Of a stretch of 64,000 nucleotides of DNA, positions 3-50,044 are shown one piece after another (within the stretch, counting starts at the first letter, position 1; each line of letters starts with the position of its first letter). Where the stretch lies: NCBI RefSeq assembly GCF_026210795.1, contig NC_089438.1, positions 5,194,218 through 5,258,217 of the forward strand, in the 5' to 3' direction. The position numbers and the translations under genes were made by a program. The notes below the pieces were generated by a model, which had not been told where the DNA came from, did no database searches, and saw only the letters and a program-made list of their open reading frames with translations. Source of the DNA: Rhizophagus irregularis. Taxonomy: Eukaryota; Glomeromycota; Glomeromycetes; Glomerales; Glomeraceae.

Positions 3-3000
3 TATTTAAAAAAAGTTATTAATATAGAGGATACAAGTGAAACAGATAGTATATTTGATGATGATTCAATTTCAGAAACAGATTCGGAAGATAATGATAT
101 AATTATTGAACAAAAAGCATTTAAAAATTTAACACGATGTGTTATTATTGATAAGATCGAAGGCCATATTAAAAGATGTGAAAATTCAAAAAGTTTTCGA
201 ACATTATGGCAGCTTTGTGGTGTATATCAAATAGATGGGAAAAGCATTGTTGAAGCAGATGGTGTATTAGAACGGCTAGGCGTTTGTAGTTATCATTTTA
301 ACAATAATCAAAAAAATCTTCATGAGCCGGGCTTTAAACAATTAAAAGACACAAGTCGAAGTGTATTTTATCGAAGAAGATGTTCATTTTGTGAAAAACT
401 TTATTATTTTTTTACACGAGGCACAGGATGCGAGAAACATTCATGGAAGATAATTAAAAGGAATGTTCAAGTGGTCTGTAATGGCTAATTTAATTGTAGC
501 GCGTTAGAACCATACAATTCTTTATGTGAACGTGTTTTTGATAAAATTAAAAATCCTCAATATGTATATTGTAATTGTTATGAACATGAAGGAGGACATT
601 TTCACACTAGACCAGGAAGAGGTCGAGAAACACTATCATGTAAAAAAAGGGGAGACCATAAGGGGGATATAAAAAAAAACTTGAAAATGTTGGCCAATTG
701 GCTTCTACATGTCACAAATAATGAAAATTTTGAATATCAGAAAAATGTTCTTACGGTAATTTTGCCACAAATTAGTCCATTTTTTAATGCAAAAAATAAA
801 TCTACAATGGTATCACAACCAGACATATCTAATACACTCGATAAATCTCTATATTCTAATCACAGTGCTCCAAGTTATTTTATATTAAAAATAGTAATGA
901 AATTAAACCAAATTCCTATCGAATTTTAAGAAAAGGAGTTGAATGAGCTAAAATATAAAGAAATTGGCCGGGAAATGGAACAAAAACTATGGCAATCATA
1001 TAAATGTCTTAAAAAATATATAAATAACTTACAAATTCCAGAAAGTCTTAATGATTATATTAGTGTATTTCCCGGGTCTTTACCGAATTTTTTTGAGTCC
1101 ATACTTACAACAATATTGGAAAGAAAGACCGCAGAATCCAACCAAAAATGACTCCTAAAAGAAAAATCATTAAAGGAATTAGATTCGCAAAAAATCAACC
1201 ATCTTCTTTCTTTATTAATTTCAGCTTTAATTAATTTTACATTTCCATACCTAAATTTGTGGCTACCGAATGTATTAGCTTCATTATGCCGATAACCAAA
1301 ATTATTATCTTCATTGCATGACCTTTTAACCAAATGTTCTATTATTAGACATACGAATAGACATGAACGAAGATTGGAAAAAATACGGATGAAAAGTGCT
1401 GACCCTTCTAAATGCCTATTGACCAAAAAAAATGTTTTTAATTTAGCTGTGATTGATAATATCGATTTTAAAGAAAGAAGCTTTCAATTTGGAAATATCT
1501 ATGATGTAACTCGAGGTACATCACATGTTACGCTAAGAATGGTGTTTCAGTTTTCATTACCAGAAGTTATTGTTAAAAAATCAGAACCAATACGTAATCT
1601 AAATATTGATACACAAATCTTTGGAATATCACAAGAAATGCGCGATATTATTTTCAAAATAAATGAAATTTTTATAAGTTTGCTAGCATTCCGGTACAAT
1701 GAAAGACAAGAACTAGAATACAATAAGATTGATCTTACAGCAATAAATTCAGAAATATTAAGGTAAACAGAATTCGGCTGTAATCTTCTACCTCTAAACG
1801 TAGTCATATTAGAACCAAGTGGATCCCCAAATGATAATAACAAAATCTTACGTGCTACGGAAATGTATAGAAGAGATTTTTCTTTGGAGGAGAATGATTT
1901 TCTAGATATTTGTGCAGATGAGGCGATATTTAGACTATTAATTAAATGCCGCAATAAATCAGAAAATATACGGCCTATTCTTGGTCGTGGCGCACCTCAA
2001 AGGATATGATGAGTGCCTTGGTTACATTATTTTCAAGTTACGGAATATATGATTTGGCTACAGCTTTAGGTGTGAAATTTTTGGATAAATTTGCAGCTGT
2101 TATTGATTATCGATCTACAAGAAGGGTTTAGAACTAATCTGGGTTGCAGTTGGAGCAGCCATTAATATATACTTACAAAAAAGTAAGATTAAAATCGAAG
2201 AAATATTATCTTGTCCTGCAAATGAGAAAATATGCTTAAGAATATGGTACTTATATTATGAATGGTTTGCAATATGGAAAACTCATCTTACCGGAATACG
2301 CTGTGGAAATTATGAATTACAAAAATTTGGATTAGCAGCTTTTGCTCCACTTTTTCCTGCCACGAGAAAAAGCAATTATGCTACTTCTGTTACACATTTT
2401 CTTGCGAATTTAGAAAAATATCCACTGTTAGAAAAAAAACTTCATCTTTGTGCTTCTATAAATTTAGCAAGAGAAGGACATTATCCTGCTTTTGACAAAG
2501 CGTTAGAAACTCATAGTGTTGCTTATATTAAACAGAATATTACTAGAAATTCGTGTAATCAAGAAAACTTAGAGTTACAAATTAAAGCAACTCAAGAGGA
2601 AAGAAATCAAATAGATACATTATTAAATGAATTTTTGGGTACTTACACATATCAACACAAGGATCACAACACAAATAATCGTATTGAACCATTATGGAAA
2701 TTAGTGCATGATTTATTAGAAGCATTCGAAATGGATAATCCTATTAATTATGATCTTTTCAAGAAAAACTCTCCACCCCAATTGAATCAAGAAGGATTAA
2801 TAAAAATAAACTAAGCATATATGGATGGATTAAAGAGAATCAAAGAAATTTTTCGGCAAGAAGTAATAAAAACTGAGGCAATTAATACTAAAGGAAGAAG
2901 GGTATTGTCAGTAATGAAAACTAAAATTTCTGATTTATCAAAAAATAAAAAACCAAGAAAGAATACTGTGCCAAAAAATAATGGGAATCAATCATCTGGT

Positions 3001-3291
3001 GTATTGCCCATTCAATCTAACGAACAAGTTCTTCAGTCAGTTAAAGGTAATTTAAAAAGAGCAAGTATTGAATTAGACAATCAAAATGAGCCTCAACCAA
3101 AACGCCAAAGAATTAGAATTATAACAACTGAAGAAGAAAAACAAATCTTAAGTTGCTTGTTACAAAAGGAAACAATACCCACAGAAACTGAAATTAATGA
3201 AGTCTTAAGTAAACTATCACAAGAATGGAATATTCAGCGTGTTAAAAGGTATTGGAATAATAATATTAGGCATAAAAAGAAAAGTAAATAG
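3..3291 (+). pseudogene. Copy A of a repeat-family protein with Cys/His-rich N-terminus and homeodomain-like tail (5' end outside window)
   Basis: Frame 3 reads through from the window edge to about 1986 with stops at 486, 927, 1149, 1293 and 1764. A 1-nt loss near 1986 and another near 2128 shift the frame, and a further stop lies at 2812. The last part (2821-3291) is open. The N-terminal part has a C-x2-C knuckle and a second Cys/His cluster, suggesting metal binding. The middle is helical and has a short motif (APLFPA, then NYA) vaguely like transposon-linked DUF6589 proteins. The C-terminus ends in a recognition-helix-like motif, V-K-R-Y-W-N-N-N-I-R followed by HKKK, as in homeodomains. 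Copy B (15674-11112, minus) gives the unbroken reading at the two frameshifts and at stops 1764 and 2812. I infer a transposon-encoded protein. The exact family is unknown to me. Confidence 0.7.
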
Positions 3292-3715
3292 GTAATATCT
3301 TTTTTTCAAAGCAATAAAGTCAGGCTGTAATATTGAAAAAGTGTATTTCTATTACAAAAAGTGTTTTTACATATATAAAAAAAAATCTAGTGTGTAAACT
3401 AATTTTATAAGATAAAGTAGACGTAACTGGCACATCTTTTTACATATATTTTGGCTATTGTTGATATTTAACAGCTTGAAATTAAAAAGGATCTTGAGAA
3501 AAAAGACCAAAATAACAAAAAAAGTCTCGAATATTTTGAATTTCTATTTTAATTAGTTAATGTTCAAAAAAATGAATTTAATACCTAAAATGGAAGTCAG
3601 AAGTTGATTTTCTGTGATAAAATCATGACGTAACATTATGTTTGAATAAGTTAATATTGAATGAAGTTTAACGATTAATGTTACACAGAATTTTAACAAT
3701 TAGTAAATTGATTTG
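3292..3715 (+). repeat. 3' flank of copy A, shared in inverted orientation with 10677-11111
   Basis: No gene. The sequence after the stop of copy A matches the reverse complement of the stretch beside copy B almost base for base, for example the block around ATGTTACGTCATGATTTTAT on the copy B side. So the repeated element extends about 420 bp past its coding region. Similarity ends near 3715, where copy B runs into the 51-bp satellite instead. I take this as close to the element's terminus, although no clear terminal repeat is visible. Confidence 0.7.
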
Positions 3716-3739
3716 TCCGGTGATTGATAACTCTGTCAA

Positions 3740-10666: not shown

Positions 10667-12377
10667 TTAATCACCAGACAAATCCAGTTACACCAATTTA
10701 CTAATTGTTAAAATTCTGTGTAACATTAATCGTTAAACTTCATTCAATATTAACTTATTCAAACATAATGTTACGTCATGATTTTATCACAGAAAATCAA
10801 CTTCTGACTTCCATTTTAGGTATTAAATTCATTTTTTTGAACATTAACTAATTAAAATAGAAATTCAAAATATTCGAGACTTTTTTTGTTATTTTGGTCT
10901 TTTTTCTCAAGATCCTTTTTAATTTCAAGCTGTTAAATATCAACAATAGCCAAAATATATGTAAAAAGATGTGCCAGTTACGTTTATTTATCTTATAAAA
11001 TTAGTTTACACACTAGATTTTTTTTTATATATGTAAAAACACTTTTTGTAATAGAAATGCACTTTTTCAATATTACAGCCTGACTTTATTGCTTTGAAAA
11101 AAAAATATTACCTATTTACTTTTCTTTTTATGCCTAATATTATTATTCCAATACCTTTTAACACGCTGGATATTCCATTCTTGTGATAGTTTACTTAAGA
11201 CTTCATTAATTTCAGTTTCTGTGGGTATTGTTTCCTTTTGTAACAAGCAACTTAAGATTTGTTTTTCTTCTTCAGTTGTTATAATTCTAATTCTTTGGCG
11301 TTTTGGTTGAGACTCATTTTGATTGTCTAATTCAATACTCACTCTTTTTAAATTACCTTTAACTGACTGAAGAACTTGTTCGTTAGATTGAATGGGCATA
11401 CACCAGATGATTGATTCCCATTATTTTTTGGCACAGTATTCTTTCTTGGTTTTTTATTTTTTAATAAATCAGAAATTTTAGTTTTCATTACTGACAATAC
11501 CCTTTTTCCTTTAGTATTAATTGCCTCAGTTTTTATTACTTCTTGCCGAAAAATTTCTTTGATTCTCTTTAATCCATCCATATATGCTTGGTTTATTTTT
11601 ATTAATCCTTCTTGATTCAATTGGGGTGGAGAGTTTTTCTTGAAAAGATCATGATTAATAGAATTATCCATTTCGAATGCTTCTAATAAATCATGCACTA
11701 ATTTCCATAATGGTTCAATACGATTATTTGTGTTGCGATCCTTGTGTTGATATGAGTAAGTACCCAAAAATTCATTTAATAATGTATCTATTCGATTTCT
11801 TTCCTCTTGAGTTGCTTTAATTTGTAACTCTAAGTTTTCTTGATTACACGAATTTCCAGTAATATTCTGTTTAATATAAGCAACACCATGAGTTTCTAAC
11901 GCTTCGTCAAAAGCAGGATAATGTCCTTCTCTTGCTAAATTTATAGAAGCACAAAGATGAAGTTTTTTTTCTAACAGTGGATATTTTTCTAAATTCGCAA
12001 GAAAATGTGTAACAGAAGTAGCATAATTGCTTTTTCTCGCGGCAGGAAAAAGTGGAGCAAAAGCTGCTAATCCAAATTTTTGTAATTCATAATTTCCACA
12101 GTGTATTCCGGTAAGATGAGTTTTCCATATTGCAAACCATTCATAATATAAGTACCATATTCTTAAGCATATTTTCTCATTTGCAGGACAAGATAATATT
12201 TCTTCGATTTTAATCTTACTTTTTTGTAAGTATATATTAATGGCTGCTCCAACTGCAACCCAGATTAGTTCTAAAACCCTTCTTGTAGATCGACAGTCAA
12301 TAACAGCTGCAAATTTATCCAAAAATTTCACACCTAAAGTCGTAGTCAAATCATATATTCCGTAACTTGAAAATAAT

Positions 12378-15150
12378 CACTAGTCGAAAAAAGACCATTC
12401 GGCCTAAATTTGACCAGGTTGAATATAGGTCGAATGATGATGTAACATATGTCAAATTGAGGTCGAATTTTTGGGCGCATTTAGGGTGCCAATCGTCTCA
12501 AATTCGGAAAGAAAATTCGGCCATCACTACACTACCATTCGACCTAAATTTGACTAGGTTGAATTTAGGTTGAATTTAGGTCTAATAGTGGCGTCAAATT
12601 GAGTTCGGATGATTATTCGACACAAAATTTTGTCTCAATATTTATTTATTAATTTAGTTCAATTTCAAATTTATTAATTTATTAAAACACTTAAATATAC
12701 AGTACATGTATATTAGCATCTATCTAATGTATAAATAAAATAATTATACATAATTTCACAATCACATGATCGCATTTTGAAAAGAACGAATGTTAAAAGT
12801 CGTCTTACTATAACTAAAGAAAAAAAATAAAGTCCAAGTCCGATCTGAAATAAAAATTCGGAAAAACAAAACTTTAAAAAAAAAGTTTCAAAACGAACCG
12901 TTTTGAAACTTACTAATCGATCCTATCATCCGGGATAAGGAAGCCGAAACTACAAAATAAAATAATAAAAAAATTTTTTAAAAAAGTTTTTAAGTGAAAA
13001 CTTACCAATTCGATCCGGGAAGTGCGAAACTGTTGATTTCTACAAATTATAAGATAAAAAAAATCAATAAAAAAAATCAAAATTAATAATAAAAAAAAAA
13101 ACTTACCAATTCAAAGACGTTGATCTACACGTTCTACTAAAGAAATCTACCGAAGCTGAAGAAAATTCCAAGAAAACGTCTTACAAAAGTAAGAGATAGA
13201 GAAATGGCGGGAAATAACGAAAGAGGAGAGGGAAGGTGAGAGGGAAGAGAGAAAGAAAGCCCCGAAGTTCCTACAAAATAAAGAAATAGAAACGTTAATA
13301 CAGTATAACGTTTCTTTTTTTTAAAAAAAAGAACTACTAAGATTCGTAATACTTACAAATCTTAGTTCTTTTTCGTTCTTCAGAAGCCCACCAAAACCTA
13401 TAAAAAAAGAATAAGAACGGTTAGTAACCGTTCATAATAATTAGAATAAAAAAAAAGAAAAAAAAACTAAGATTCGTAATACGGAATACTTACGAATCTT
13501 AGTTTTTTCCGTTCTTCATTCTTCGGAAACTCACCCAAACGGACGAACCTATAAAAAAAAAGAAAGGAACGGTTAGTAAACCGTTCCAAAATAATAAAAA
13601 AAAACAAAAATTAAGATTCGTACTCGTATTTACGAATCTTGGTTTCAGAAGCCAACTGAACCTATAAAAATAAAAGAAAACAAACGGTTAGAAACCGTTC
13701 ATAATATTAAAAAAAAACCTAAGATTCGTAACGAACCTTAGTTCTCCTTTTCCCGATCCTCGGAAGCTCACAATATATAAAAAAAAGAAAGAATGGTTAG
13801 TAAACCATTCGTAATAATCAAAAATAAAAAAAAAGATTAAAGATTCGTACTTACGAATCTTTGGGTTTTCGTTCTTCAGAAGCCCACCCGATCCTAAAAA
13901 AAGAAAAAAACGGTTATTAGTAACCGTTTATATATTAAAAAAAAAACAAAAAAAATTAAACCAAGATTCGTACTTACTTACGAATCTTAGTTTCTTGGTT
14001 TTCCGTTCTTCGGAAGCCCACTCGATCCTAAAAAATAGAAAAGAACGGTTATTAGTAACCGTTCATAATATTTTTTTAAAAAAATAAAAAAAAATCCAAG
14101 ATTCTTACGAATCTTTGGAATTTTCCCATTCTTCGGAACACGGAAGCCCACCCGAATGGCCGAACCTAAAAAAAAAGTAAAAAAAGAACGGTTAGTAACC
14201 GTTCATATTAAATTAAAAAAAAATAATAAACCAAGTTTCGTACTTACGAAACTTGGTTTTTCCATACTTCGGAAGCCCACCCGAACGGCCGAATCTAAAA
14301 AAAAGTAATAAAAGAACGGTTAGTAACCGTTCATACTAAATTAAAAAAAAATAAATAAATAAACCAAGTTTCGTATTTACGAAACTTGGTTTCCATACTT
14401 CGGAAGCCCACCCGAACGGCCGAATCTAAAAAAAAAGTAATAAAAGAACGGTTAGTAACCTTTCATATACTAAATTAAAAAAAATAAACAAATAAACCAA
14501 GCTTCGTACTTACGAAACTTGGTTTTTCCATACTTCGGAAGCCCACCCGAACGGCTGAATCTAAAAAAAAAGTAATAAAAGAACGGTTAGTAACTGTTTA
14601 TACTAAATTAAAAAAATAAATAAATAAACCAAGTTTCGTACTTACGAAACTTGGTTTTTCCATACTTTGGAAGCCCATCCGAGCCTTTTAAATGGGCGTC
14701 TTGAATCTAAAAAAGAAAAAAACAAAACGTTAGTGAAACGTTTTGTTAAAAAAAGTAAAAATTTGAAGGTATATGTATACCTTCGAAAGAGATAAGTGAC
14801 GAAAGGAAAGGGGAAAGGGTAAGGAAGGGAAAAGCGAAGGAAGGGAAAGGAGAACGAAGGGAGGGAAAGGGGAAGAAGAGAAACTGGGACGAAGGAAAAG
14901 GGGAACGAAGGAAGGGAAAGGGCGAGTAGGGAAAGAAGAAAATTAAAAAAATTTAAAAAAGGATCATCCTTTTTTAAACTTTTATTTTAATACACGTATC
15001 GCATAACGCATAACGTTTGATTAACATAATTCAACTAGGTTGAATATATGTCTAATCGTAGATCTTTACTAGTTGAAGTCAAATTTTATTAATTCTAGTC
15101 GAATATAGGCCAAATTGTATTAAGGCCGAATATTCTTTTTTCGACTAGTG
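12378..15150. mobile_element. Non-autonomous CACTA element with 3-bp target duplication
   Basis: Ends are CACTAGTCGAAAAAAGA and its inverted partner TCTTTTTTCGACTAGTG. The 3-bp target AAT is present at 12375-12377 and 15151-15153. Copy A has the uninterrupted site (ATT at 2026-2028 on the other strand), which proves the boundaries. CACTA termini and 3-bp duplications define the EnSpm/CACTA superfamily. Near each end are diverged GGCCTAAATTTGAC/GTTGAATATAGGTC-type subterminal repeats. There is no transposase gene, so mobility would depend on an autonomous relative. The centre is a purine-rich stretch (14800-14940) plus the array described separately. Confidence 0.92.
13290..14765 (-). repeat. 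Array of intron-like, palindrome-bearing units inside the CACTA element
   Basis: Eleven or so units of about 105-135 bp. Read on minus, a unit has TTTTTTTAG, a spacer of about 45 nt (ATTCGGCCGTTCGGGTGGGC .. CTTCCGAAG), a palindrome containing CGTAAGTACG, an AT-rich stretch, a second palindrome GAACGGTTACTAACCGTTC and another T-run ending in TAG. So GTAAGT, TACTAAC and pyrimidine-tract plus AG occur in the order and spacing of a small intron. The second palindrome lies at about 13416, 13570, 13796, 13914, 14048, 14190, 14317, 14450 and 14584. Arm changes are matched in the partner arm (GATTCG/CGAATC in the first units, GTTTCG/CGAAAC in the last ones). Confidence 0.85.
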
Positions 15151-15674
15151 AATGTAACCAAGGCGCTCATCATATCCTTTGAGGTGTGCCACTGACCAAG
15201 AATAGGCCGTATATTTTCTGATTTATTGCGGCATTTAATTAATCGTCTAAATATCGCCTCATCTGCACAAATATCTAGAAAATCATTCTCCTCTAAAGAA
15301 AAATCTCTTCTATATATTTCCATAGCACGTAAGATTTCGTTATCATCATTTAGGGATCCACTTGGTTCTAGTATGACTACGTTTAGAGGTGGAAGATTAC
15401 AGCCGAATTCTGTTTGCCTTAATATTTCTGAATTTATTGCTGTAAGATCAATCTTATTGTATTCTAGTTCTTGTCTTTCATTGTACTGGAATGCCAGCAA
15501 ACTTATAAAAATTTCATTTATTTTGAAAATAATATCGCGCATTTTTTGTGATATTTCAAAGATTTGTGTATCAATATTTAGATCACGTATTGGTTCTGGT
15601 TTTTTAACAATAACTTCCGGTAATGAAAACTGAAACACCATTCTTAGCGTAGCATGTGATGTACCTCAAGTTAC

Positions 15675-18514
15675 CACTGGTCAAAATTGGTGCTATTGGG
15701 TACATATCGGGTACCTGATATGTGTATAATATATGTAATATATGTGTATGATATTTAACAATACTACACATATCGGGTACCTGATATGTGTAGTATAAAT
15801 GTAGAAAATCGGTGACACATCATGTAAACATCATATACACATCTTACACATATCGGGTAGTCAAATATCAGTGACATATCTTATAGATATCATACATTTA
15901 ACACACATATATCGGGTAGTAAAATATCAGTGATATATATTATAGATATCATACATTTAATACACACATATCGGGTAGTAAAATATCAGTGACATATCTT
16001 ATAGATATCATACATTTAATACACACATATCGGGTAGTAAAATATCAGTGATATATATTATAGATATCATACATTTAACACACATATATCGGGTAGTAAA
16101 ATATGTAAAATATTGGTAATATATATTTTTATTGTATACGTTTGACAATTTCATATTAAAACTAATAGATTTATATCTCTTTTTTATTTTAATTTGGGCT
16201 AAATGAAATTCAATTTTATTAAAATTTATAAATTTATTTACATAAAAGCAATAATACAAATCTTACACTATCTGCTACGTAAAATCAAATAAAGTTGAAC
16301 ATAATTATACTATGTAATATGTTAAGTTCTACTGAAAGTAGCAATGATAATAAAATTACCTCTTTGCTTGTTTTGTTATATCTGTTTATTATTTAAAAGA
16401 AATATCAGTGAAAATATTAGTAAGTATATTAATTAATAGGAGAAAATAAAATAGAAATGTTAATAAAAACGTTAGTGGTAAATATAGAAAATATTAGTAA
16501 AAATGTTAGTAGGAAGAAAGAAAAGTTAGTAAAATAGAAAATGTTAATAGGAGAATGTTAATAAAAACATGTTAGTAGTATTTAATATTAATAGAAAATG
16601 TTAAGTGGTAGAAAACATTAGTGAGAAAAAAGAAAAAAAGTATTAGAACGTCAATAGAAAATGTATATATAAAAAGAAAAAAACAAGCATAATGAAAATA
16701 TACCTTTATGTTTATTTCTAAATATAAAAATAAAAAAAAAATATATTAATATTATTTCATAATAACTAAGTAACGAGTTTGTTTTAAATAAAAAGTTTAA
16801 GAGAAAGGGCTTTTACGAAAGAAAAAAAAAATAAACAAAGTGCGAAATATAAATACCGAAATCATGTGATCAATCGCCTGATTACAATAACAAATTCTGA
16901 TTGGGCCATGGATTTTAACCAGATTATTATAATTAATAAAAAAAATGCATTTATACTATTTATACTAGAATTACACTGCAAGTTAAACTCTTTATCGCTT
17001 TAAATAATACAAAACCCTACTTAAATATACCAATTAGTCACAAATCGGGTACTTATTGGTAGCCTATTTGTCACCTATCATGCATACCAGTCAACATGGT
17101 AAATCACTGATTTTTCATAATATCAAATAATAAATATTTATTTAGAAACTCCAAGAACCTACAAAAAGAAAAAAAAGTAATGTTACTAAGGAAAAAAAAT
17201 AAACGTGAAACTCCCCTTTCCCATTTACCTTTCACTAAAGTCCAGTTCGTATAATTCGTCCGGCGTTCCTACAATAAAAGAAAAAAATGTAACATTAGTA
17301 ATGTTACTAAAAGAAGTAAATTTCTCTTCCATTAATACCTTCACTCAAAAGTCCGGTTCGTAATTTCATCTGGCTTTCCTACAAAAAGAAAAAAGAAACA
17401 TTAGAAACGTTTCTTATTTAACACACATGACACACTACACCCACCCAACTTACATCAAGTGTAAGTCCACTTTCTAAGAGTCTGGCATCCTAGTCCTACA
17501 AAAAAACAAAGAAAGAAACGTTAGTACGTTTCTTTAATATTCAAAAAACCAATTCCCCTCCCCTATTCCTAACATTATCCAAGTCCGGATTCGTTTTCAA
17601 GAGTCCAGCGCCCTACCCTACAAAAAAATAAAGAAAGCAACGTAAGTACGTTTCTTTATATAATATTAAAAAAACATTTCCCCCTCTTCCCATTCCTTAC
17701 ATTATCCAAGTCCGGGTTCGCTTTCAAGAGTCTAGCGTCCTAGTTCTATAAAAAAAATTAAGAAAGAAACGTTAAAAACGTTTCTTTAATATTAACCCTT
17801 TCTCTTTCCTTACACACATTCCAAGTCCAGGTTCGTTTTCAAGAGTCCGGCATCCTAGTTCTATAAAAAAAAAGAAAGAAACATTAAAAACGTTTCTTAA
17901 TTACAGTAAAACACATAATCCCAGTCTCCTTCTCCCACATTACCTTTATTGGTTCGACGGTTCGTCCTGGTCTTCAAGGTCCGGCATTCTACAAAAAATA
18001 GGAGTCCGACCTACAAAAAAAAAATAAAAAATGAAATATTTTTTTTTTAAGTATTGATTTTTATTAGATTATCAACGATTAATAAATGATTGGATCCTAA
18101 CTGAAACTTCAGGTAATTTTGCGAAACTCTAGTTTTGGCAAGCAATCCTAGATCGAATATTACACGGATGACTGGATTGACCAGATTGATCAGATAATCT
18201 GGTCAAATCCTATTTTTTTTTATTTTTTTTTTTTAAAAAAAAAATATTTTTTATTCTCCTTCGGTCTTCCCCTTTGGAATTCGGCTTAAACAGCTTAGGA
18301 CGTTCGTTTTTCTAAGGGAACACCTCCCTGGAACTGGATTTCGGCTTGAAGGTAAGTTAGGAGGAGGGAATTTTGTTTCTTTTTTGTTTTTATTTATTTA
18401 TTTATTTTTCTAACGTTTCTCTTTATTCTTTTTTGTAGACTTCGGCTTCTTGGATTATTTGGGATATTGGGTAAGTGTGTGGGGGTGGGTTCTTTTGGAA
18501 TTTACTTTGAAGAA
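15675..18514. mobile_element. Left part of a CACTG-ended non-autonomous element (copy 2a)
   Basis: Begins CACTGGTCAAAATTGGTGC at the break in copy B and is nearly identical to the element at 42938-47299 over most of its length. It ends where another CACTA-type terminus starts (18515), so its right arm is absent. Segments: TATC/GGGTA tandem repeats (15700-16120), an AT-rich middle (16130-17100), a minus-oriented intron-like array (17160-18010), and the start of the plus-oriented array (18250-18514). The tandem repeats near the left end have a period of about 60 bp, with one more copy than in 2b. No coding region is supported. Confidence 0.8.
17160..18010 (-). repeat. Intron-like unit array, minus orientation, in element 2a
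   Basis: About seven units of roughly 110-125 bp. On minus each has a palindrome such as AAACGTACTAACGTT, then a T-run ending in GTAG (plus strand CTACAAAAAA..), then about 45 nt including a variant of GACTCTTGAAAACGAA..CCGGACTTGG. GTAAG-type donors follow in several units. The plus strand shows GTTAGTA at about 17520 and close variants elsewhere. The orientation is opposite to the array in the right half of the same element family. Confidence 0.7.
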
Positions 18515-21693: not shown

Positions 21694-21779
21694 TTTATAT
21701 TCACTCAATATTCGTTTAAAAAATCGAAGCGGGTTCAATATCGTCATATCGTCCTATTTATAAATTTAAAAATCATCAA

Positions 21780-26380: not shown

Positions 26381-26499
26381 ACTTATAAGTTTTAGACATA
26401 AATTTATAATAAATTGAGTAATTGACTATAAATTTGGTGTTGATTTTTCCGAATTTCTGAATTTTAATGACAAATCATGTTTTTCAAAAGTTAATTTTG

Positions 26500-27290: not shown

Positions 27291-27432
27291 TAATGTCAGT
27301 CGATTTTGGTCTGATTTTTAGCTGATTTTCCATATGTCCGATTTTTTTGATTTTAACCAGTGGCATGAATTATATATTAAATTAACGTCATGGAGAATGT
27401 TGGCATTTTTATACTTTTTTTATGATATTTTA

Positions 27433-33565: not shown

Positions 33566-36500
33566 ATGTTAGGTTGTATTGTTTTAGGCGAAAAGAACGC
33601 ATTTCCTGTCGATTTCGATACAGGCAAGACCATAGGACATCTCAAGGGAGCCATCAAGGAGAAGAAAAGTGTGGCCTTTTGCAATACTGACGCAAACGAT
33701 CTGAAATTATGGAAAGTCAACATTCCTGAAAGCAAGAAACAAGAGATATATGAAGGAATCGACATCAAAGTAAAGTTCGGAGGTGAGGAGCTGGACAGTG
33801 ACCTCAAAACAATTGGACATGTTTTCGAAGAACAACCTCCTAGTGAGCACATCCACATCCTTGTGCAACTGCCAACGCCCGCCACCACTGGTAAGTGTCT
33901 CCCAATGGTTTACCTCTCGAACAAGAAATTCGCAGTAACAAAATATCGAGTTTGTTCTGATCTCTTTTTTTCGCGTTAAAGTAGGTCCCTCTCATCAAGG
34001 CGTTCCACAAGGTACGGTATCTCTAGTTAAATTTCCTGTGTTGTCTTAGTCTTTGTATTCTGGCCTGCCATTATTGATACATATAGGTTACTTGTACCGT
34101 ATCTATTTGTTAATACACTGTGCTTTCTTATTGTTTACAAAACATAGTGACGTCGATCGAAGATGCCATGAAAAAGATTTTGGAGGGAATTCATAAACAA
34201 ATGGACGTAGACAATGTAGACAATAATAAGCCCAAGCCCATGGCTCTAAAACAACGTGACCTTAAGCAAGCTATTGATGTGATTGACAGGAATTTTTGTA
34301 ATTCCTTAGATAAACAAAAAGCTATAAAAAAAGAAACTCCCACGGCAAAGACAAACTATCGAATCCTTTTATGCGGTGGGGCACCTGGCATAGGTAACTT
34401 TCATACATTCTCTTGTATGTTTTTACTGCAGATAAAGCGGTTTTAGCCTTCTAATTAACAAATTCAAACTATAATTCACTAGGAAAGACACGTTATGGAG
34501 TTGAATTGTTTAATTGTCTCGACAAAGAATGGAAGATATCAAAAGGCCAAAAGCCTTACATGCTTTACATGCTTTTTGATTTCACTAATGGTTATGCTTT
34601 AGATGAGTATGAAATCCAGGGGGATATTAAAATTGCATCAGAAATCATTCTTGGATTGCGGTTGGCGTACCACTATTTGGTCCACAAAAAATATGTGATG
34701 AGTTTTACAGTGTTCCGTACGAAATCCAATGAATATAAGCAATGTTTCAGATTGAGTAATGTCCTCTTATACATCCACAACCTTGAACATGAAAGTCTGA
34801 TTCAACGTGGCAAGCATCTTTTCATTTTTCTTCAAATTGATGAATTTCAGCTAATTTTCAAAGAGCGAAATGGGGGGGAAAAATTATTTAAGCAGTTAAT
34901 GTATACCCTTGGGCATCATATGGCCGGAGAAATTCCTGAAGTATTTGTGCAGACTCTACTTTCAGGTACAGCACCACAGGATGCAATACGAGCAATGGAA
35001 CCTACAATGTATTCTATTGAACCTCTTGACCTTCCACTGCTTTCCTTGGAGTCACGCCTTGAAATAATGAGGGAATTTGCAACAAATCATGGTGTTTCTG
35101 ATTGTGTATGGGTACCAAAAGTTTGGATACATCAATTACTTCTTGATACAGGTGGTCTTCCACGTGCTTTGGAGTATCTTTTTGCAGAATTTTTCGGGCA
35201 AGATTTTACAAGGGTTAAGGAATTTTTCGAAGATCTTGAAAAAAAGAAACTAATCCCATCGACAATCTACACCAGCGTCTCAAAAGATATTGATACAGCA
35301 TATAAAATCAAACCTTATGCTAGAGAACATAAAATGCTCATATACGAGCTTGTTTACAGAAATATTATGGAAATCGAATCAGATATATCTGATGTACTGC
35401 AAGATGGTGACCACCGTATAAAATTGGAACATCTAGAACGTGATAGGCACTTGATATTAAGGAGATCGGAAGAGGAAGATAAAGTTCAAATTGATATACC
35501 ATACTTCTTTATGTATCATTATGCCAGTGTCCTTGGAGTTTTCACGGAACATCTAAACCATGCATTTTTACCTGACGAAATTTGGTCGTGGCAAAATTGG
35601 GAAAAATTTATCGCGGATTTTATAACTTCACGCATCAATATGATTGATGTGCTGAACAAAGAAAAATTATTAAAACTTGGAAATTTCTTTCGTGGTTCAG
35701 GTAGCAATGTTACACTGGGCCAGTTGATCAATTTCGGGTCTGTTGAAATCTATGAATTAAACCATCAATTTCCATGCCTGAACCTTTCTGCGAAAAAGGG
35801 AAAAACTGCTGTGTTAAAGCCGGGTTACATTATGATCAATGGTTATTCGGCACCATTTGCAGATATCTTTTTTTTAGTAGATGAACCTGATCCCATTCTT
35901 ATTGCTATTCAATGCAGATTGAGAAAAAATCTTCTTAATCTGAAAACAATCGAAGATGAGCATAAGAGAAATGCAAATATTTCTCATAAAATGGAAGAAA
36001 AGGCCAGAAAACTGAAGAACGATAGCAAAATAGCGAGCAGAGAGAAGAAAGAGGAGTTACGAAAAGAAGCAGAGAAATATACGCAACTTGGTAACCTTTT
36101 GAGTAAATACCGTGTCATTACTATTTTTGTTACTACTCAGCGGTTTAATGAGGAATTAGAACGCATTCCTAATGATTGTATTCTGATTCATCAAGAAAAG
36201 TTTGATACTTTCTTCGGACCTGTATTTTCTTCTCGTACCAAGTTTGTAATGACCAGAGATTCAAATCCAAATTTGAGTACTGCAAGTCAATTGACGTCAA
36301 GATATAAAGCAATTAGTCAAGATATAGGGGAAAGAATTGAACAAACTAGAAAGAGAAGGATTTTTAGGTCACATGAAGAGTTCTGTGAAGAATTTAAAGA
36401 ATTAGCTGATGTTAATGAGCTCCGAGATGATTTTATCTACTACCCATACCCTCCATATATAGAACCCTTTGAACATTCAAACAAGAGAACACGCGTTTAA
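33566..36500 (+). CDS. Crinkler (CRN) family effector: Ubl-like header, P-loop NTPase, nuclease-like C-terminus
   Basis: Four exons, 33566-33890, 33985-34011, 34148-34393 and 34483-36500, join in frame to 871 residues. The start is ATG 33566 (MLGCIVLGEKNAFPVDF). Residues 1-108 form the ubiquitin-like CRN header (IGHLKGAIKEKK). Residues about 194-202 are a Walker A motif (GGAPGIGKT), its last Gly codon split by intron 3. Walker B is LFIFLQIDE near 312-320. Near 655-680, FADIFFLVDE..AIQCR resembles the restriction-endonuclease-type core of CRN toxin domains, with QCR where Q-x-K is usual. A charged helical segment and basic clusters (RKRR, KRTR) follow. Known CRNs of this layout act in host or recipient nuclei. 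There is no signal peptide, as is usual for the family. The gene is intact although flanked by dead transposons. Confidence 0.88.
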
Positions 36501-39694: not shown

Positions 39695-41000
39695 TAGAGC
39701 TCCGAATTTGACCTGACAGATCAGGTGACCCGACGGGTTGACCTGAAAAATTCAGGTCAGGTAGCAGATTTAATGACCCGATCTCAGGTCAGGTCAGTCA
39801 CAGCCAGGTACCTAACCTGACCCATTGACCTGACATATTTTGGTCAAAAATAAGACGTTTCAGCATTTATTATATATAAAAAAATGCCAAACTGACCTGA
39901 ATCTGATGTTTTTTCATTAAAAATAATTACAAAAACGTCTTTTTTTATTAAAAACATCGGGTTCGATTAAAGAAACAAAAAAAAATGTTTCTTTATTAAA
40001 AAACATCGAACCTGACATTTTTTATTAAAAGAAATAAAAAAAAATTATTTCTTTAATTAAAAAATGTCTAACCTGACGTTTTTTATTAAAAGAAATAAAA
40101 AAAATTATTTCTTTAATTAAAAAATGTCTAACCTGACGTTTTTTATTAAAAGAAACAAAAAAAAATGTTTCTTTAATTAAAAGATGTCGGGTTTGATATT
40201 TTTTCATTAAAAGAAACAAAAAAAAATATTTCTTAAATTAAAAATGTTGGGTTTGGCGTTTTTTCATTAAAAGAAACAAAAAAAGTTTCTTTAATTAAAA
40301 AATGTCGGGTTTAACATTTTTTCATTAAAAGAAACAAAAAAAATGTTTCTTTAATTAAAAAACGTCGGGTTTAATGTTTTTTCATTAAAAGAAACAAAAA
40401 AATGTTTCTTTAATTAAAAAACGTTGGGTTTGACATTTTTTCATTAAAAAGAAACAAAAAAAATGTTTCTTTAATTAAAAAACGTTGGGTTTGACATTTT
40501 TTCATTAAAAGAAACAAAAAAAATGTTTCTTTATTAAAAAATGTCGAACCTGACATTTTTTATTAAAAGAAACAAAGAAAACGTTTCTTTAATTAAAAAA
40601 CGTTGAACCTGACATTTTTTATTAAAAGAAACAAAAGAAAACGTTTCTTTAATTAAAAAACGTCGAACCTGATATTTTTTATTAAAAGAAACAAAAGAAA
40701 ATGTTTCTTTAATTAAAAAATATCGAACCTGACGTTTTTATTAAAAGAAACAAAAAAAAATTGTTTCTTTAATTTAAAAACGTCAGGTCCGACGTTTTTC
40801 ATTAGAAGAAACAAAAAAAAGACATTTTGGTGTAATAAAAAGTGCCGAAACGTTTTTTTGACCCAAAATATATCAGGTCAATGGGTCGGGTCAGGTATCT
40901 GAACTGACCCGTGATATTCGGTCAGGTCACCAAATTCATGACTTACCTTGGGTCGGGTCAAGTCAATTATCCGACCCGATTTAACCCATTCAGAACTTTA
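39695..41000. mobile_element. Hairpin-filled non-autonomous hAT element
   Basis: The ends TAGAGCTCCGAAT and, inverted, TAAAGTTCTGAAT are flanked by CTCAAAAT at 39687-39694 and 41001-41008. Subterminal parts are crowded with GGTCAGGT/ACCTGACC words. The middle (39900-40850) is about 15 units of roughly 60 bp, each foldable: AAAGAAAC .. GTTTCTTT nested in GACATTTTT .. AAAAATGTC. There is no coding sequence. It lies in the MULE gene. A shorter relative sits at 52980-53812. Confidence 0.9.
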
Positions 41001-42363: not shown

Positions 42364-44349
42364 TATATGACTATCAGAATTAATATGTGTTTTTTCTAAA
42401 AAAAATTGTTTAATTAATTAAAGTTTAAAAGATGCAACTAAATTAACTGAATATTAATAAAAACAAATTATATTACCACATAATTTTTGTTTTGAGCTTC
42501 TTGAGCTAATTGTTGTGCAATATTTTAATAGTTTCCTTTCTTCCTATTATTAATAGTAAGGAAATATTATTAATTATTAAAATAATATTGCATAATATAC
42601 AATATAAATTAAGACTCATTATTACAATATTGCTATTTAACAAATCACGTAATAAAGGAATATCATAAGTTGCAGGATCAACTTTTATATATCGATGGTA
42701 TTTATCATTTAGTTTATATTTATCACAACCAATAATATAATTAGAAGTAGATGTTTGATAGTTCTTTAGATTGATTAATTTTGGCTTGTCAGAACAAAAT
42801 ATACCATTTTGTTTAAATTTACATTTAGATTCCATACTTCCAAGATATAGTTTATTATGATTTAAAGTAATTATTAAATAAAATTAATTATCATTTAACT
42901 TTTGTAACTTACACATAAAATGCACTATTGCAACTTACACTGGTCAAAATTGGTGCTATTGGGTACATATCAGGTACCTGATATGTGTATAATATATGTA
43001 ATATATGTGTATGATATTTAACAATACTACACATATCGGGTACCTGATATGTGTAGTATAAATGTAGAAAATCGGTGACACATCATGTAAACATCATATA
43101 CACATCTTACACATATCGGGTAGTCAAATATCAGTGACATATTTTATAGATATCATACATTTAACACGCATATCGGGTAGTAAAATATCAGTGACATATC
43201 TTATAGATATCATACATTTAACACACACATATCGGGTAGTAAAATATCAGTGATATATATTATAGATATCATACATTTAACACACATATATCGGGTAGTA
43301 AAATATGTAAAATATTGGTAATATATATTTTTATTGTATACGTTTGACAATTTCATATTAAAACTAATAGATTTATATCTCTTTTTTATTTTAATTTGGG
43401 CTAAATGAAATTCAATTTTATTAAAATTTATAAATTTATTTACATAAAAGCAATAATACAAATCTTACACTATCTGCTACGTAAAATCAAATAAAGTTGA
43501 ACATAATTATACTATGTAATATGTTAAGTTCTACCGAAAGTAGCAATGATAATAAAATTACCTCTTTGCTTGTTTTGTTATATCTATTTATTATTTAAAA
43601 GAAATATCAGTGAAAATATTAGTAAGTATATTAATTAATAGGAGAAAATAAAATAGAAATGTTAATAAAAACGTTAGTGGTAAATATAGAAAATATTAGT
43701 AAAAATGTTAGTAGGAAGAAAGAAAAGTTAGTAAAATAGAAAATGTTAATAGGAGAATGTTAATAAAAACATGTTAGTAGTATTTAATATTAATAGAAAA
43801 TGTTAAGTGGTAGAAAACATTAGTGAGAGAAAAGAAAAAAAGTATTAAAACGTCAATAGAAAATGTATATATAAAAAGAAAAAAACAAGCATAATGAAAA
43901 TATACCTTTATGTTTATTTCTAAATATAAAAATAAAAATAAAAATATATTAATATTATTTCATAATAACTAAGTAAAGAGTTTGTTTTAAATAAAAAGTT
44001 TAAGAGAAAGGGCTTTTACGAAAGAAAAAAAAAATAAACAAAGTGCGAAATATAAATACCGAAATCATGTGATCAATCGCCTGATTACAATAACAAATTC
44101 TGATTGGGCCATGGATTTTAACCGAATTATTATAATTAATAAAAAAAATGCATTTATACTATTTATACTAGAATTACACTGCAAGTTAAACTCTTTATCG
44201 CTTTAAATAATACAAAACTCTACTTAAATATACCAATTAATCACAAATTGGGTACCTATCGGTAGCCTATTTGTCACCTATCATGCATACCAGTCAACAT
44301 GGTAAATCACTGATTTTTCGTAATATTAAATAATAAATATTTATTTAGA

Positions 44350-45190
44350 AACTCCAAGAACCTACAAAAGAAAAAAAAAGTAATGTTACTAAGGAAAAAA
44401 AAATAAACGTGAAACTCCCCTTTCCCATTTACCTTTCACTAAAGTCCAGTTCATATAATTCGTCCAGCGTTCCTACAATAAAAGAAAAAAATGTAACGTT
44501 AGTAACGTTACTAAAAGAAGTAAATTTTTCTTCCATTAATACTTTCACTCAAAAGTCCGGTTCGTAATTTCGTCTGGCTTTCCTACAAAAAAAAAAAGAA
44601 ACGTTAAAGAAACGTTTCTTATTTAACACACATGACACACTACACCCACCCAACTTACATCAAGTGTAAGTTCACTTCATCAGGAAGTCACGGGAAAAAT
44701 ATTCATCAAATGTACATCGGTCACTTGATGTATATCATAAAGAAACGCTGAACATCGGACCCTGCAATGTACTACCGACGTCACAACATTTGATGTTTAT
44801 CGCCAAATTAAAGATGTTCATCACCTGTACATTACGATTAATTAACACATTTATTAATGATATTAAAATACATGCGTTATTTATTATTATACTATCATTA
44901 TACTATACAAATGTATTATTAACTAATTAATATAATATCTATGGCTATTTTAAATCTATATAATATGTTAAATACTAGATAAAAATTGATTTCCAAAATA
45001 AACCTATAAAGAAAAAAATGAAAATGTTAATAAAACTTTTCGTTAAAAATAAAAAAAAAGTAAAATTTGAAGGGATATATATACCTTCGAAATAGGATCC
45101 AGTCGCGTCTTGGACCTACAAAAGAAAAAAAAATGAAACCGTTAGTAAAAACGTTTCGTTAGAAAAAATAAAAATTTGAAGGTACTGTAT
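44350..45190 (-). repeat. Intron-like array, minus orientation, in element 2b
   Basis: Units carry, on minus, palindromes such as GTAACGTTACTAACGTTAC (near 44505) followed by a T-run and GTAG. The first units match element 2a. At 44672 the sequence switches to a different stretch (GTACATCGGTCACTTGATGT) without units, then two more unit-like blocks follow near 45000-45180. Confidence 0.65.
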
Positions 45191-45389
45191 AGTAGATCGG
45201 ATATTACACAGATGACTGGATTGACCAGATTGATCAGATAATCTGGTCAAATCCTATTTTTTTTTATTTTTTTTTTAAAAAAAAATATTTTTTATTCTCC
45301 TTCGGTCTTTCCCTTTGGAATTCGGCTTAAACGGCTTAGGACGTTCGTTTTTCTAAGGGAACACCTTCCTGGAACTGGATTTCGGCTTG

Positions 45390-46330
45390 AAGGTAAGTTA
45401 GGAGGAGGGAATTTCGTTTCTTTTTTGTTTTTATTTATTTATTTATTTTTCTAACGTTTCTCTTTATTCTTTTTTGTAGACTTCGGCTTCTTGGATTATT
45501 TGGGATATTGAGTAAGTATGTGGGGGTGGGTTTTTTGGAATTTACTTTGAAGAAACGTACTTTAACGTTTTTTTATTATTTTTTGTAGATTTTGTCTTTC
45601 CGGGTTCTTTGTAAGTGTGTGGGGGTGGGTTCTTTTGGAATTTACTTTGAAGAAACGTACTAACGTTTCTTTTTTTATTATTTTTTGTAGATTTCGTCTT
45701 TCCGGATTCTTTATAAGTGTGTGGGGGTGGGTTTTTTCAGAATTTACTTTGAAGAAACGTACTAACGTTTCCTTTTTTATTCTTTATTGTAGATTTCGGC
45801 TTCCTGGATTATTTGGGATATTGGGTAAATGTGTGGGAGTTCTTTCAGAATTTACTTTGAAGAAACATATTAACGTTTCTTTTTATTCTTTTTTTGTAGA
45901 TTTTGTCTTCCCGGGTTCTTTGTAAGTGTGTGGGTGAGTTTTTTCAGAATTTACTTTGAAGAAACATACTAACGTTTCTTTTTTTATTTTTTTTTGTAGA
46001 TTTTGTCTTCCCGGGTTCTTTGTAAGTGTGTGGGTTGGGTTTTTTCGGAATTTACTTTGAAGAAATGTACTAACGTTTCTTTTTTTATTCTTTACAATTG
46101 TAGATTTCGGATTCTTGGATTATTTAGGATATTGGGTAAGTATGTGAGGGTGGGTTCTTTTGGAATTTACTTTGAAGAAACGTACTAACGTTTCTTTTTT
46201 TATTCTTTTTTGTAGATTTCAGCTTTCTGGATTATTTGGGATATTGGGTAAATGTGTAGGGAGTTTCAGAATTTACTTTGAAAAAAGCATACTAATGTTT
46301 CTTTTTTATTGGGATATGAGTAGTGTGTGG
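45390..46330 (+). repeat. Intron-like array, plus orientation, in element 2b
   Basis: About eight units. The clearest is 45611-45690: GTAAGTGTGTGG at the start, TACTAAC at 45658-45664 within GAAACGTACTAACGTTTC, and TTTTTTGTAG at the end, 80 nt long, with 27 nt from the branch-like A to the AG. The pieces between are 22-32 nt (ATTTCGTCTTTCCGGATTC type). Further GTAAG donors lie at 45922, 46022 and 46136, and TACTAAC at 45760, 45967, 46068 and 46183. An initial unit at 45390-45479 has GTAAGTTAGG, CTAACG and TTTTTTGTAG. The frames open here (45617-45925, 46003-46188) are not credible genes. Confidence 0.85.
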
Positions 46331-46592
46331 GGTGGGTTTACTTTAAACAAACATAATAATTTTATTTTGGTTCAAATTAATAAATAATTTCATATTACTA
46401 TATAATAAACTATAAACTAATGAATATATTATGGCTTGAATTAAAATCTGAAAAAAAAAATTCGGTATAATAATAAAAAAATTATCAGATTGAACGGATT
46501 CAATCCCAATTTTCTGATGGATTTCGGGGCATACCTATACTGTACTGTAGGTTATATATATGACATACTATGCTGAAACATTTCACTTTTCA

Positions 46593-47299
46593 CCGATATA
46601 TAGATGCCCGATATATAACCAATAGCATAGATTTTGACCAGTGTGTATCGGTGATATATTGGGTACCCGATGAGGACCCCGAGCAATATATATATAGGTA
46701 ACAAGAATGGTCAAAATTTTTATAATAGCTCTACGCAAGGTTTTTATTAAGATAAATAAGCAAACTCAACATGTGACTTCACAAATTGCCCAAAAATAAG
46801 CAATCTAACCATATGACTTTATAATATTATATTTTACAAAAATTATTTGATTAAATTTTCTCGCATTTATGATTTACAATTTCACTTTTTTCAATAGTAA
46901 TATCATCTTAGCTAAAATATCCGTCTTAAATTTTTTTTCATCTTATTAGTATAATACCATCGCTTATATAGTTAAATGTTATATAATGCATTATTAAATA
47001 ATTCCAAATTTACTCAAAAAATAAGCAATTGTAATATATGACTTTTCAAAAATTCTGTGAAAATAAGCAAATGAAAAATATGACATTGGCAAAAAATATC
47101 ATTAATTTTACGCAAATCTAACCTCTAACTGTGGCTAAAATAGCATGTGACTAAGCAAACGATATTGTTACCTATACATATATTGCTCGGGATCCTACCC
47201 GATGTGTATCCGATATATGTAACTGCCCGATATATATCCAATTTATTACCGATATATAGGTGTCCAATATATACCCGATAGTATAGATTTTGACCAGTG
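46593..47299. repeat. Duplicated right terminus with inverted arms between
   Basis: Two copies of ACCGATATATAG..TAGATTTTGACCAGTG end at 46643 and 47299. Between them, GAGCAATATATATATAGGTA (near 46681) is inverted at TACCTATACATATATTGCTC (ending near 47188), with similar outer arms (TATCGG, CCCGATG). Only the outer copy has the TTA duplication. This looks like a nested foldback or a terminus gained by recombination. The interior is AT-rich without genes. Confidence 0.6.
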
Positions 47300-48276
47300 T
47301 TATACATACGTATAGGTCTTTGATTTTTTTTGTCTCAACATGTTTATTCTTACTGATTTTTTGCCAAAATTCTGAATCAAAGTCTACTTCATTATGGCTT
47401 ATATTAATAATTTCAGGATTGATAAATTCACAGTGCTTGATTCCCATACAGTTTCTTTCTTCTTTATTAACGCTAATATTACCAAAGAATGGACAGTTCT
47501 TAATTGAACTTTGACCACCTCCACCTAAGGAATATTGAATCTGAAGAAAAATTTATTTGTATTATATTTAATAATTTTAATAGAATTAATAAAGCTGCAG
47601 ATTAATAAATGATAATTACTTACATTTTTCAAACAGTCTCTTGGATTCTTCCAACCTGTAATATTATATACTGTGGATATTCTGAAGTTTTTGGATATTC
47701 AATTGGTATAGTGGCATAATGAACTTCTTGTACATGTGTCTTTCTTGAAAATATTGCAATTGAATCTTCTTTTTCATCACTTATATCAGTATCTTTATCA
47801 CTTTCAATAGTATTACTATCACTTTCAACTTGATATTCCTTTAAGAAAGCCAAAAGAAAATTAATTTATTAAATTGAAAAACTTAGCCTCATATATTTTA
47901 CTTACAGGATCTAACTCAATATAATTAATATCAAGTTCTTCTATGTCTGAAAGATCTATTTTCTCACTCATTTTTATTATTTTGGATAGGAATATTTTTC
48001 ACCAATAGAAAAAAAAATTTTTTCATGTGATTATAAGCCACAATAGAAAGTATTTTTTGTGTTATATCTGATGTTATTGTTTATTACATGTGTTTCATTG
48101 TATCACATAAAATATTTTAATATGATATTTATTGTGTCACATAGTATAATATTATCTTAGTATGGTAATTTGTCTTATCATACATACTAAATTTATAAAT
48201 CATATTATACTGATTTACTATATACCCAGTTATTTTACTCATTACTGTTTTTTCTATTATTAAATTAAAGTTTTAA

Positions 48277-48714: not shown

Positions 48715-50044
48715 TAAGGATGGTGCCGCAAATATATAATTGCAAAATAATTGCGATTTACAGTATTGCAGAACATTGCAGATTTTTAAATCTAAAAATT
48801 CACAGATCCACAAATCTGCAATTATCTGCAATCCTACAAATATTCTGCAAATCTGCAAATATCCAAAGTATCGCAATTCAATTGCAAAATATTTGCAGGA
48901 TTGCGGAATATTTGCAGATTTGCGGAATGTCCACAAAAAAAACTAATGTTTTTTTTAATGAAATATAATTTTTTAATTTAACTAATAAAAAATATATTTC
49001 CTTTTATTATTAATTATAAAAAAAAATCATTTTTCATTAACAAAATTTAAAAAAAAATGATTTTATTTTTTAGAAAAAGATGGATCAGTAATTGGAAAAA
49101 ACTGCCAGAAACGGCATTTTCTCCTATAATAACTGCAAAAAAAATATCAGAACTAATAGTTCTGGCAATTTTAATAAAAAAAAATAAAAAAAAATGCCAG
49201 AAATAATAGTTTTGGCGTTTTTATAAAAAATTAAAAAAAAACGCTGAAATCAATAGTTCTGGCATTTTTATATAAAAAAAAAATAAAAATTGAAACTTCA
49301 GAACCAATAGTTCTGGCATTTTAATAAAAAAAAGTCAAAAAAAAATGCCAGAACCTATAGTTCTGGCATTTTTATATAAAAATTTAAAAAAAACGTTGAA
49401 ACTCATAGTTCTAGCATTTTTATATAAAAAAAATTAAAAGAAAATGCCAGAACCATAGTTCTGACGTTTTTATATAAAAAAAAATTAAAAAAATGCTAAA
49501 ACTATAGTTCTAGTGTTTTTATATAAAAAAATCAAAAGAAAATGCCAGAACTATATAGTTCTGGCATTTTTACATAAAAAAATTAAAGAAAATGTCAGAA
49601 CCATAGTTCTGGCATTTTTATATAAAAAAATCAAAAGAAAACGCCAGAACTATAGTTCTAGCATTTTTATATAAGAAAAAATCAAAAAAAAGTGTCGGAA
49701 TCATAGTTCCAGCATTTTTTATATAAAAAAAAATTAAAAGAAAATGCCAGAACTTATAGTTCCAGCATTTTTATATAAAAAAATAAAAGAAAATGCCAGA
49801 ACTATGAGTTCTGGTATTTTTATATAAAAAAAATTAAAAGAAAATGCTGAAACTCATAGTTCTGGCATTTTTATATAAAAAAATTAAAAGAAAACTCTGG
49901 AACTCATAGTTCTGACATTTTTATAACTGACAGTTATAGGCAGCCAATTAGAATTGCAAAATTGTGAACTACTAACCGCAATTCAACTTACTTCAAAATT
50001 TGCAATATTGCAAATTTTGAAAATCATTTGTGAACTCATCCTTA
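48715..50044. mobile_element. Hairpin-filled non-autonomous hAT element in the right MULE terminal repeat
   Basis: The ends TAAGGATG and CATCCTTA are flanked by CATATAGT (48707-48714) and CATACAGT (50045-50052), 7 of 8 matching. Subterminal parts are full of GCAAAT/ATTTGC words (48725-48925, 49960-50030). The middle (49090-49925) is about 14 units of roughly 60 bp, each a palindrome of the type TGCCAGAACTATAGTTCTGG plus an AT-rich TTTTTATATAAAAAAA spacer. There is no coding sequence. Confidence 0.88.

Follow-up and report, generated by a model that had tools for sequence, protein, structure and literature searches.

Why should the arm of a DNA transposon consist of what look like complete introns, set one behind the other? 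The first-pass annotation had described such an arrangement in the 64-kb window of the Rhizophagus irregularis genome (the window being the whole stretch of DNA analysed here), with about eight uniform units separated by short exon-like pieces. When the stretch 45393-46323 was analyzed, eight intron-like units and a decayed ninth were observed:

45393..45479, plus strand, intron-like unit 1 (GTAAGT, CTAAC)
45512..45588, plus strand, intron-like unit 2 (GTAAGT, TTAAC)
45611..45690, plus strand, intron-like unit 3 (GTAAGT, TACTAAC, TTTTTTGTAG; RNAfold z -3.4)
45713..45792, plus strand, intron-like unit 4 (donor broken: ATAAGT)
45825..45899, plus strand, intron-like unit 5 (GTAAAT, TTAAC)
45922..45999, plus strand, intron-like unit 6 (RNAfold z -2.0; branch hairpin absent from the best fold)
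46022..46103, plus strand, intron-like unit 7
46136..46215, plus strand, intron-like unit 8 (RNAfold z -3.5)
46248..46323, plus strand, decayed ninth unit (GTAAAT start)

The pieces between the units measure, in order, 32, 22, 22, 32, 22, 22, 32 and 32 nt, and the branch adenosine is located about 24-31 nt before the unit end. The array with its eight units and its 22- and 32-nt spacers is therefore real, but its signals are slightly less uniform than had been stated: the exact GTAAGT start is present in 6 of 9 units, exact TACTAAC in 5 of 9 and the exact TTTTTTGTAG end in 6 of 9. Folding z-scores (RNAfold) of eight units ranged from -2.0 to -6.1, with the branch hairpin missing from some of the best folds.

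The introns of the Crinkler gene in the same window had been called far less canonical than these units. TACTAAC is indeed absent from both the Crinkler (33467-36500) and the Tnp2 (23105-26200) regions of the window; the weaker canonicity itself was judged by reading the sequence only. The Crinkler N-terminal domain was detected at 33467-33979 (E-value 2.5e-24).

Carrier elements of the arrays

The arrays sit in TSD-bounded elements of two superfamilies, CACTA (elements A and B) and hAT (element H and a transposase-bearing hAT-like element). The array described above belongs to element A, which has the following parts and a partial second copy:

42938..47299, element A, CACTG-ended, non-autonomous, 4362 bp, with CACTGGTCAAAAT at both termini and TSD TTA/TTA
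42935..42937, TSD TTA, left of A
47300..47302, TSD TTA, right of A
42938..43400, left end of A with 5 copies of CCGATAT
46331..47299, right end of A with 5 copies of CCGATAT
45195..46539, plus strand, captured hAT-like array element H in A (from BLAST of free H, L018:3569-5765, against the window)
45004..45084, minus strand, intron-like unit near the centre of A, resembling the first intron region of B
44583..44658, minus strand, left-arm intron-like unit of A (RNAfold z -2.0)
44473..44542, minus strand, left-arm intron-like unit of A with branch hairpin GTAACGTTACTAACGTTAC (RNAfold z -3.6)
44362..44432, minus strand, left-arm intron-like unit of A in which the scripted scan found no YTAAY
15675..18514, partial second copy of A (copy 1), with a minus-strand array of 7 units at 17943-17159

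Elements A and B possess CACTR terminal inverted repeats, a 3-bp TSD and a short motif repeated near both ends, features that they share with the CACTA / En-Spm (CMC) transposons. They differ from these in their interior, which holds an exon-intron array where transposase genes would stand, and in that the splice signals are internal and not terminal. The motif CCGATAT of A has no copy in 43401-46330 and is thus found outside the array stretch only. No frame of at least 120 aa lies wholly within 12378-15150 or 42938-47299, so that no Tnp2-type transposase of their own was found in A or B and both are considered non-autonomous; their edges are overlapped by host frames only (frames of at least 120 aa). 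A search that demanded a TSD gave four copies of A, at L010, L012, L014 and L017, with TSDs CTT, TCA, TAA and TAG.

As the left units of A are on the minus strand, its arrays read outward from the centre. When the left-arm array was compared with the element end, its orientation was reversed in L012, L024, L027 and L029, and this opposite orientation points to array modules that were flipped; L011 holds the array without the end. Several of the seven units in the partial copy of A are absent from the other copy. On the minus strand of 43600-43860, dense YTAAY followed by T-rich runs was seen by eye, possibly the remnants of decayed units. At 18515-27362, a CACTG-ended element of larger size may be present, containing a weak Tnp2 match (24488-25219). 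Its termini and those of A are alike over about 13 bp, and its flanking triplets mismatch.

Inside A, element H lacks its left end up to H position 125, and its right end is recognisable at 46539; neither that left end nor a duplication of H is visible in A. Because the H match starts at H position 125 in A and at four loci (L010, L014, L017 and L019), the simplest reading is a single capture of a truncated H, which would afterwards have moved together with A. Free H, as found at L018, has a length of 2197 bp, TAGAGGTATGCTCC termini and an exact 8-bp TSD, and is flanked by the reverse-transcriptase and endonuclease frames of a LINE. The Pfam scan of L018 covered frames that are outside or almost wholly outside the element. 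The TSDs of H agree at 8/8 positions in L018, 8/8 in L022 and 7/8 in L023. With its 8-bp duplications and its TAGAGG termini, which we take to be hAT-like, H resembles the hAT transposons, from which it differs by carrying an array of intron-like units.

Exact 8-bp TSDs were also observed in 3 of 3 elements at L015, L020 and L021, which carry an array related to that of H on the strand opposite to the element's frames. One of these frames, in L015, matches DUF659, a region known from hAT transposases; this match and the 8-bp duplications are the likeness of the L015-type element to hAT transposons. The homology of the arrays was computed to H for L015. One array type is common to CACTA-type and hAT-type transposons. 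The description of the locus as a CACTG-element arm was half correct: the array is inside a CACTA-like element with a TTA duplication, but it lies in a truncated hAT-like element there. An arm specific to CACTA is not supported, a related array being present in a transposase-bearing hAT-like element. Element boundaries could be placed for 10 of the 20 array loci fetched, with ends of the CACTA type in 4 (L010, L012, L014 and L017) and of the hAT type in 6 (L015, L020, L021, L018, L022 and L023). Other transposon-related regions in the window include a hAT dimerisation region (27857-28261; E-value 5.4e-11) and a Plavaka transposase fragment (58939-59589; E-value 4.4e-20).

The second CACTA family of the window, element B, has its own array:

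12378..15150, minus strand, element B, CACTAG-ended, 2773 bp (recognised by termini, TSD AAT and a paralogous empty site)
12375..12377, TSD AAT, left of B
15151..15153, TSD AAT, right of B
1506..3729, paralogous host-gene segment without B (empty site)
12950..14780, minus strand, B array
14780-14707, 14645-14561, 14513-14426, 14380-14295, 14247-14166, 14108-14028 and 13981-13894, minus strand, B introns, first part
13633-13549, 13493-13398, 13356-13271, 13106-13040 and 13005-12950, minus strand, B introns after two decayed units

The end motif of B is present in 7 and 2 copies at the two ends, with none in the array stretch. At least 163 genomic matches to B were obtained (40 of 560 candidates scored), and the matches listed correspond to about 39 separate loci by eye. 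Boundary pairs were recorded irrespective of the presence of a TSD, and an exact 3-bp TSD was found in 6 of 6 pairs from the seven copies examined, L033 giving no pair. In a self-comparison, the repeat units of B and the A right array showed no similarity to each other; similarity did appear between the first B intron region and units close to the centre of A. Judged from these comparisons, B is a CACTA family unrelated to A, with an independent array of the same plan.

Occurrence of the plan in the window and the genome

The intron-like plan occurs far above chance, is confined to transposons in this window and recurs across the genome. The strict pattern GTAAG..ACTAAC..T4+..YAG was found 7 times in the 64-kb window, in all cases inside A and B, compared with simulation means of 0.065 (200 first-order Markov sequences) and 0.035 (200 third-order Markov sequences). 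At 17 places in the window, a hairpin contains a branch-like site that is preceded by a donor-like site and followed by a T-run and AG; 16 of these places are inside A, its partial copy or B (30 simulations: mean 3.2, maximum 7). When the 20 tandem arrays of at least 200 bp in the window were screened, a looser form of the plan was present in 4 and absent in 16. These four belong to A, to its partial copy or to B, and in each of them the plan is confined to a single strand. Two long tandem arrays with palindromic units (39969-40820 and 49137-49923) are without the intron plan and provide a useful contrast.

In the whole genome (146.7 Mb, 32 contigs), TACTAAC..TTTTTTGTAG gave 139 matches, compared with 2 for the reversed control. 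Among the 100 of these 139 matches that were listed, 66 are within 1500 bp of another and 34 are isolated.

Conservation of splice signals and stems

Ten copies of B with 12 introns were compared. All ten were used in the core-nucleotide count and for the stems, and six distant copies in the matched control for splice dinucleotides and branch. The two decayed units are not part of the B intron list; the intron near 12912 was also left out of the substitution and matched-control counts and was included, with a shifted start, in a separate listing of B introns. Changes at GT, AG and branch T/A affected 15 of 338 sites in the six distant copies, compared with 1056 of 8179 other sites; the four close copies showed a weak excess (core changes 7/272 vs 389/6775, P 0.02). 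Splice GT/AG in the six distant copies were changed in 13 of 226 cases, compared with 241 of 1411 for non-CpG GT/AG away from splice sites (P 2.5e-6), P values in these comparisons being overstated as the copies share ancestry. The branch YTAAY was changed in 5 of 278 cases in the same copies, compared with 63 of 390 for other YTAAY. Between the units of B, identity was 0.90 at the donor, 0.94 at the acceptor and 0.85 at the branch, compared with 0.69 in both the intron middle and the exons.

In the left array of A (nine loci), GT/AG were changed in 6 of 188 cases vs 135 of 1098 in the control (P 6.8e-5). The plain count of the 5-letter branch was unfavourable (20/185 changed vs 0/145 in the control). 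These 20 changes consist of 14 pyrimidine exchanges at position 5 (the last), five changes at position 3 and one at position 1, and the branch T and branch A were changed in 0 of 38 and 0 of 37 cases, respectively. In the right array of A, the donor was no better conserved than the intron middle (0.887 vs 0.886). A set of 31 A/H units, restricted to matches spanning query position <=18 to >=106, had splice sites changed in 6 of 186 cases vs 236 of 2277 other intron sites, with the donor GT changed in 5 of 62; exon ends, changed in 6 of 279 cases, were as conserved as the splice sites. By these substitution counts, B and the left array of A show the constraint on donor, branch and acceptor that is expected of spliceosomal introns; in the A right array and in H this constraint is weak or missing. 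The earlier view that the units look like real introns is supported: GT, AG and branch nucleotides are kept above matched controls in B and A's left array.

The stems of B were also compared in the ten copies. Compensatory double changes numbered 43, compared with a mean of 5.5 and a maximum of 16 in 1000 partner shuffles; the other changes were 11 double pair-breaking, 72 single pair-keeping and 118 single pair-breaking. Among 11 units within B, the donor helix was 96.9 % paired and the branch helix 68.2 % on the same alignment. Covariation of the helices between these units was seen in 9 both-side-changed cells (3.6 in shuffles) and in 3 such pairs (2.4 in shuffles), the latter not unusual. 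A strong hairpin over a donor, as in B, would as a rule hinder splicing, which counts against the explanation proposed below.

Covarying stems are also in favour of an alternative in which the units are palindromic repeats acting at the DNA level, as transposase-binding or hairpin-forming sites, with the splice signals being incidental. Subterminal repeats of plant CACTA elements can form stem-loops according to the cited part of PMC4219821, and other tandem arrays of the window have palindromic units (consensus units, by eye). We nevertheless consider this alternative improbable. The repeated motifs at the two ends of A and of B are distinct from the units and missing from the array stretches; the acceptor AGs are conserved though they are outside the hairpins; the plan is lacking in those 16 of the 20 tandem arrays; and the left array does not keep one orientation to the element end in all copies. 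The candidate role of the arrays as end repeats for transposase binding was disfavoured, as the end motifs of A and B lie outside them.

Coding potential of the exon-like pieces

If the units are removed, the exon-like pieces could form a protein-coding repeat gene built of many tiny exons. When the exons of A were joined (216 nt), 0, 0 and 2 stops were found in the three frames, compared with a shuffle mean of 8.2 (P 0.0025), but this shuffle test is anti-conservative because the exons are repeats. The joined exons of B also contain a long open frame, and one frame is stop-free across the four close B copies. However, the stops counted in six B copies showed no significant deficit relative to neutral simulation (P 0.11 to 0.97); the aligned exon lengths of two distant copies (270 and 402 nt vs 342 nt) make their stop counts rough. 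The exon lengths of the arrays are mostly not multiples of 3, which shifts the frame, and a Pfam scan gave no matching family up to E 0.1. Nothing reached gathering scores in the Rfam scan. The pieces between the units therefore seem to be non-coding, with reading frames under no significant constraint in these counts, and we give the protein-coding alternative a low probability.

Distribution of units and effect on host genes

The array had been linked to introner-like behaviour, in which single units insert into genes as new introns. Near-identical, spliceable-looking units in many copies are in agreement with such behaviour, and fungal introner-like elements have also been described as symmetrical or structured (PMC8469720, cited in part). 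When one 80-bp unit was used as query, 192 genomic matches were obtained; the 150 of these 192 that were listed form 29 clusters with a median spacing of 111 bp. Among the matches listed, 148 of 150 belong to 27 clusters of at least two. The other two clusters were read and contain two units (L060, by eye) and two complete units with a cut third (L061), so that all 29 hold at least two units.

Of the 34 isolated branch/acceptor places mentioned above, 23 were read: 9 hold at least two hairpin units on the same strand, 7 hold one and 7 none. None of these 23 resembled a unit in a long coding exon, the longest downstream open frame having 49 codons, although the flanks read were short. A search of the genome for single units as introns in unrelated genes, which had been suggested, thus found none among the places examined. 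In addition, the termini and TSDs of A, B and H are well outside the introns, and so the element ends are not the intron ends as would be required of introners. The introner reading was dropped on account of the clustering of the unit matches listed, and we regard it as very unlikely.

A further suggestion was that splicing masks the insertion by cutting the element out of the transcripts of the host gene. Correct splicing is possible for a host intron that harbours a plant CACTA element, as reported in the cited part of PMC4219821. Against this, the host frame at B meets a stop 31 nt into the element, about 370 nt ahead of the first clear donor. The right array of A and its host gene lie on opposite strands, and likewise the array element in L018 and the LINE that it interrupts. 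The array exons would, moreover, stay in the mRNA. On the basis of the stops and the orientation in B, A and L018, masking of the insertion was rejected, and it has hardly any probability in our view.

On contig C30, the duplicate of the partial A copy (L061) stops at the same junction as the copy in the window, and L061 is longer by exactly one exon-intron unit (by eye); this one-unit difference indicates that unit number changes between near-identical copies. An apparent segmental duplication relates window positions ~12300-46330 to ~4300-46700 of C30 (G000); within the initial 47 kb of this contig, A, its partial copy and B are matched at high identity (99 % for the left end of A, 97 % for B). 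Processed copies lacking the introns, which would have argued for splicing, were looked for with two exon-junction patterns, allowing up to 3 mismatches, and none was found.

Proposed explanation and relation to known systems

We propose, as the probable explanation, a predicted spliced and probably non-coding exon-intron array that is carried and exchanged as transposon cargo. It would be part of a transcription unit carried by DNA transposons and would consist of tandem repeats of a short exon and a small spliceosomal intron, in which a hairpin usually encloses the branch site and, in B, the donor too. The array would be transcribed, its units removed by the spliceosome and its spliced product non-coding, while unit number may be altered by unequal exchange or slippage. 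That the signals appear to be kept by selection and the intervening pieces are apparently non-coding suggests that being spliced may be useful to the element itself.

The most speculative step is that efficient splicing might make the RNA of the element look normally processed and so reduce silencing by small RNAs or methylation. As a tentative extension, for which we claim much less than for the cargo array, a splicing-dependent non-coding module built of structured spliceosomal introns would be exchanged between unrelated DNA transposon superfamilies, with splicing as the selected cargo that shields the RNA or the locus of its carrier from RNA-based silencing. In Cryptococcus, stalled splicing can reportedly trigger RNA interference against transposons. 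CMC-EnSpm elements are expressed during spore development of Rhizophagus, and CMC-EnSpm, Plavaka and hAT families in colonised roots (PMC8647823, PMC11075540; both cited in part). DNA methylation and small RNAs have been reported at transposon loci (PMC8647823, cited part).

Introners and fungal introner-like elements are repeated intron sequences, as are the units described here (PMC9860276, PMC4457414; cited in part). Introners spread through genes, and many are consistent with DNA transposition (PMC9860276, cited part). They are introns inserted in genes, whereas the units of the present arrays follow one another within transposons, and no single unit was found in a gene among the places examined. 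The internally symmetrical stwintrons, proliferating fungal introns with inverted repeats, are similar to the units; unlike the arrays, they are integrated seamlessly in genes without TSDs (PMC8469720, cited part). The soybean TgmR* and Spm-suppressible alleles also combine a CACTA element with splicing, but there it is the host intron holding the element that is spliced, and an intron array is not mentioned in the cited part of PMC4219821. No description of a transposon-borne intron array was found in the open literature as covered by titles and the starts of abstracts, bioRxiv preprints being outside this scope.

If the explanation is true, transposons can be selected for being spliced without coding for anything, and the arrays would be a natural system for studying how splicing lets RNA surveillance distinguish self from transposon. 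It would also address the origin of ready-made introns outside genes and the passage of cargo between transposon superfamilies. For annotation, such arrays can give false multi-exon gene models.

Similar DNA was found neither in plasmids nor in viral contigs. A 21-base match to the branch hairpin of A was observed at L001:978-998, the contig having been assigned to an alphaproteobacterial bin. Intron-like repeat families of different sequence were also observed at L040, L042, L043, L051 and L052, some of them with a palindromic donor or branch (by eye).
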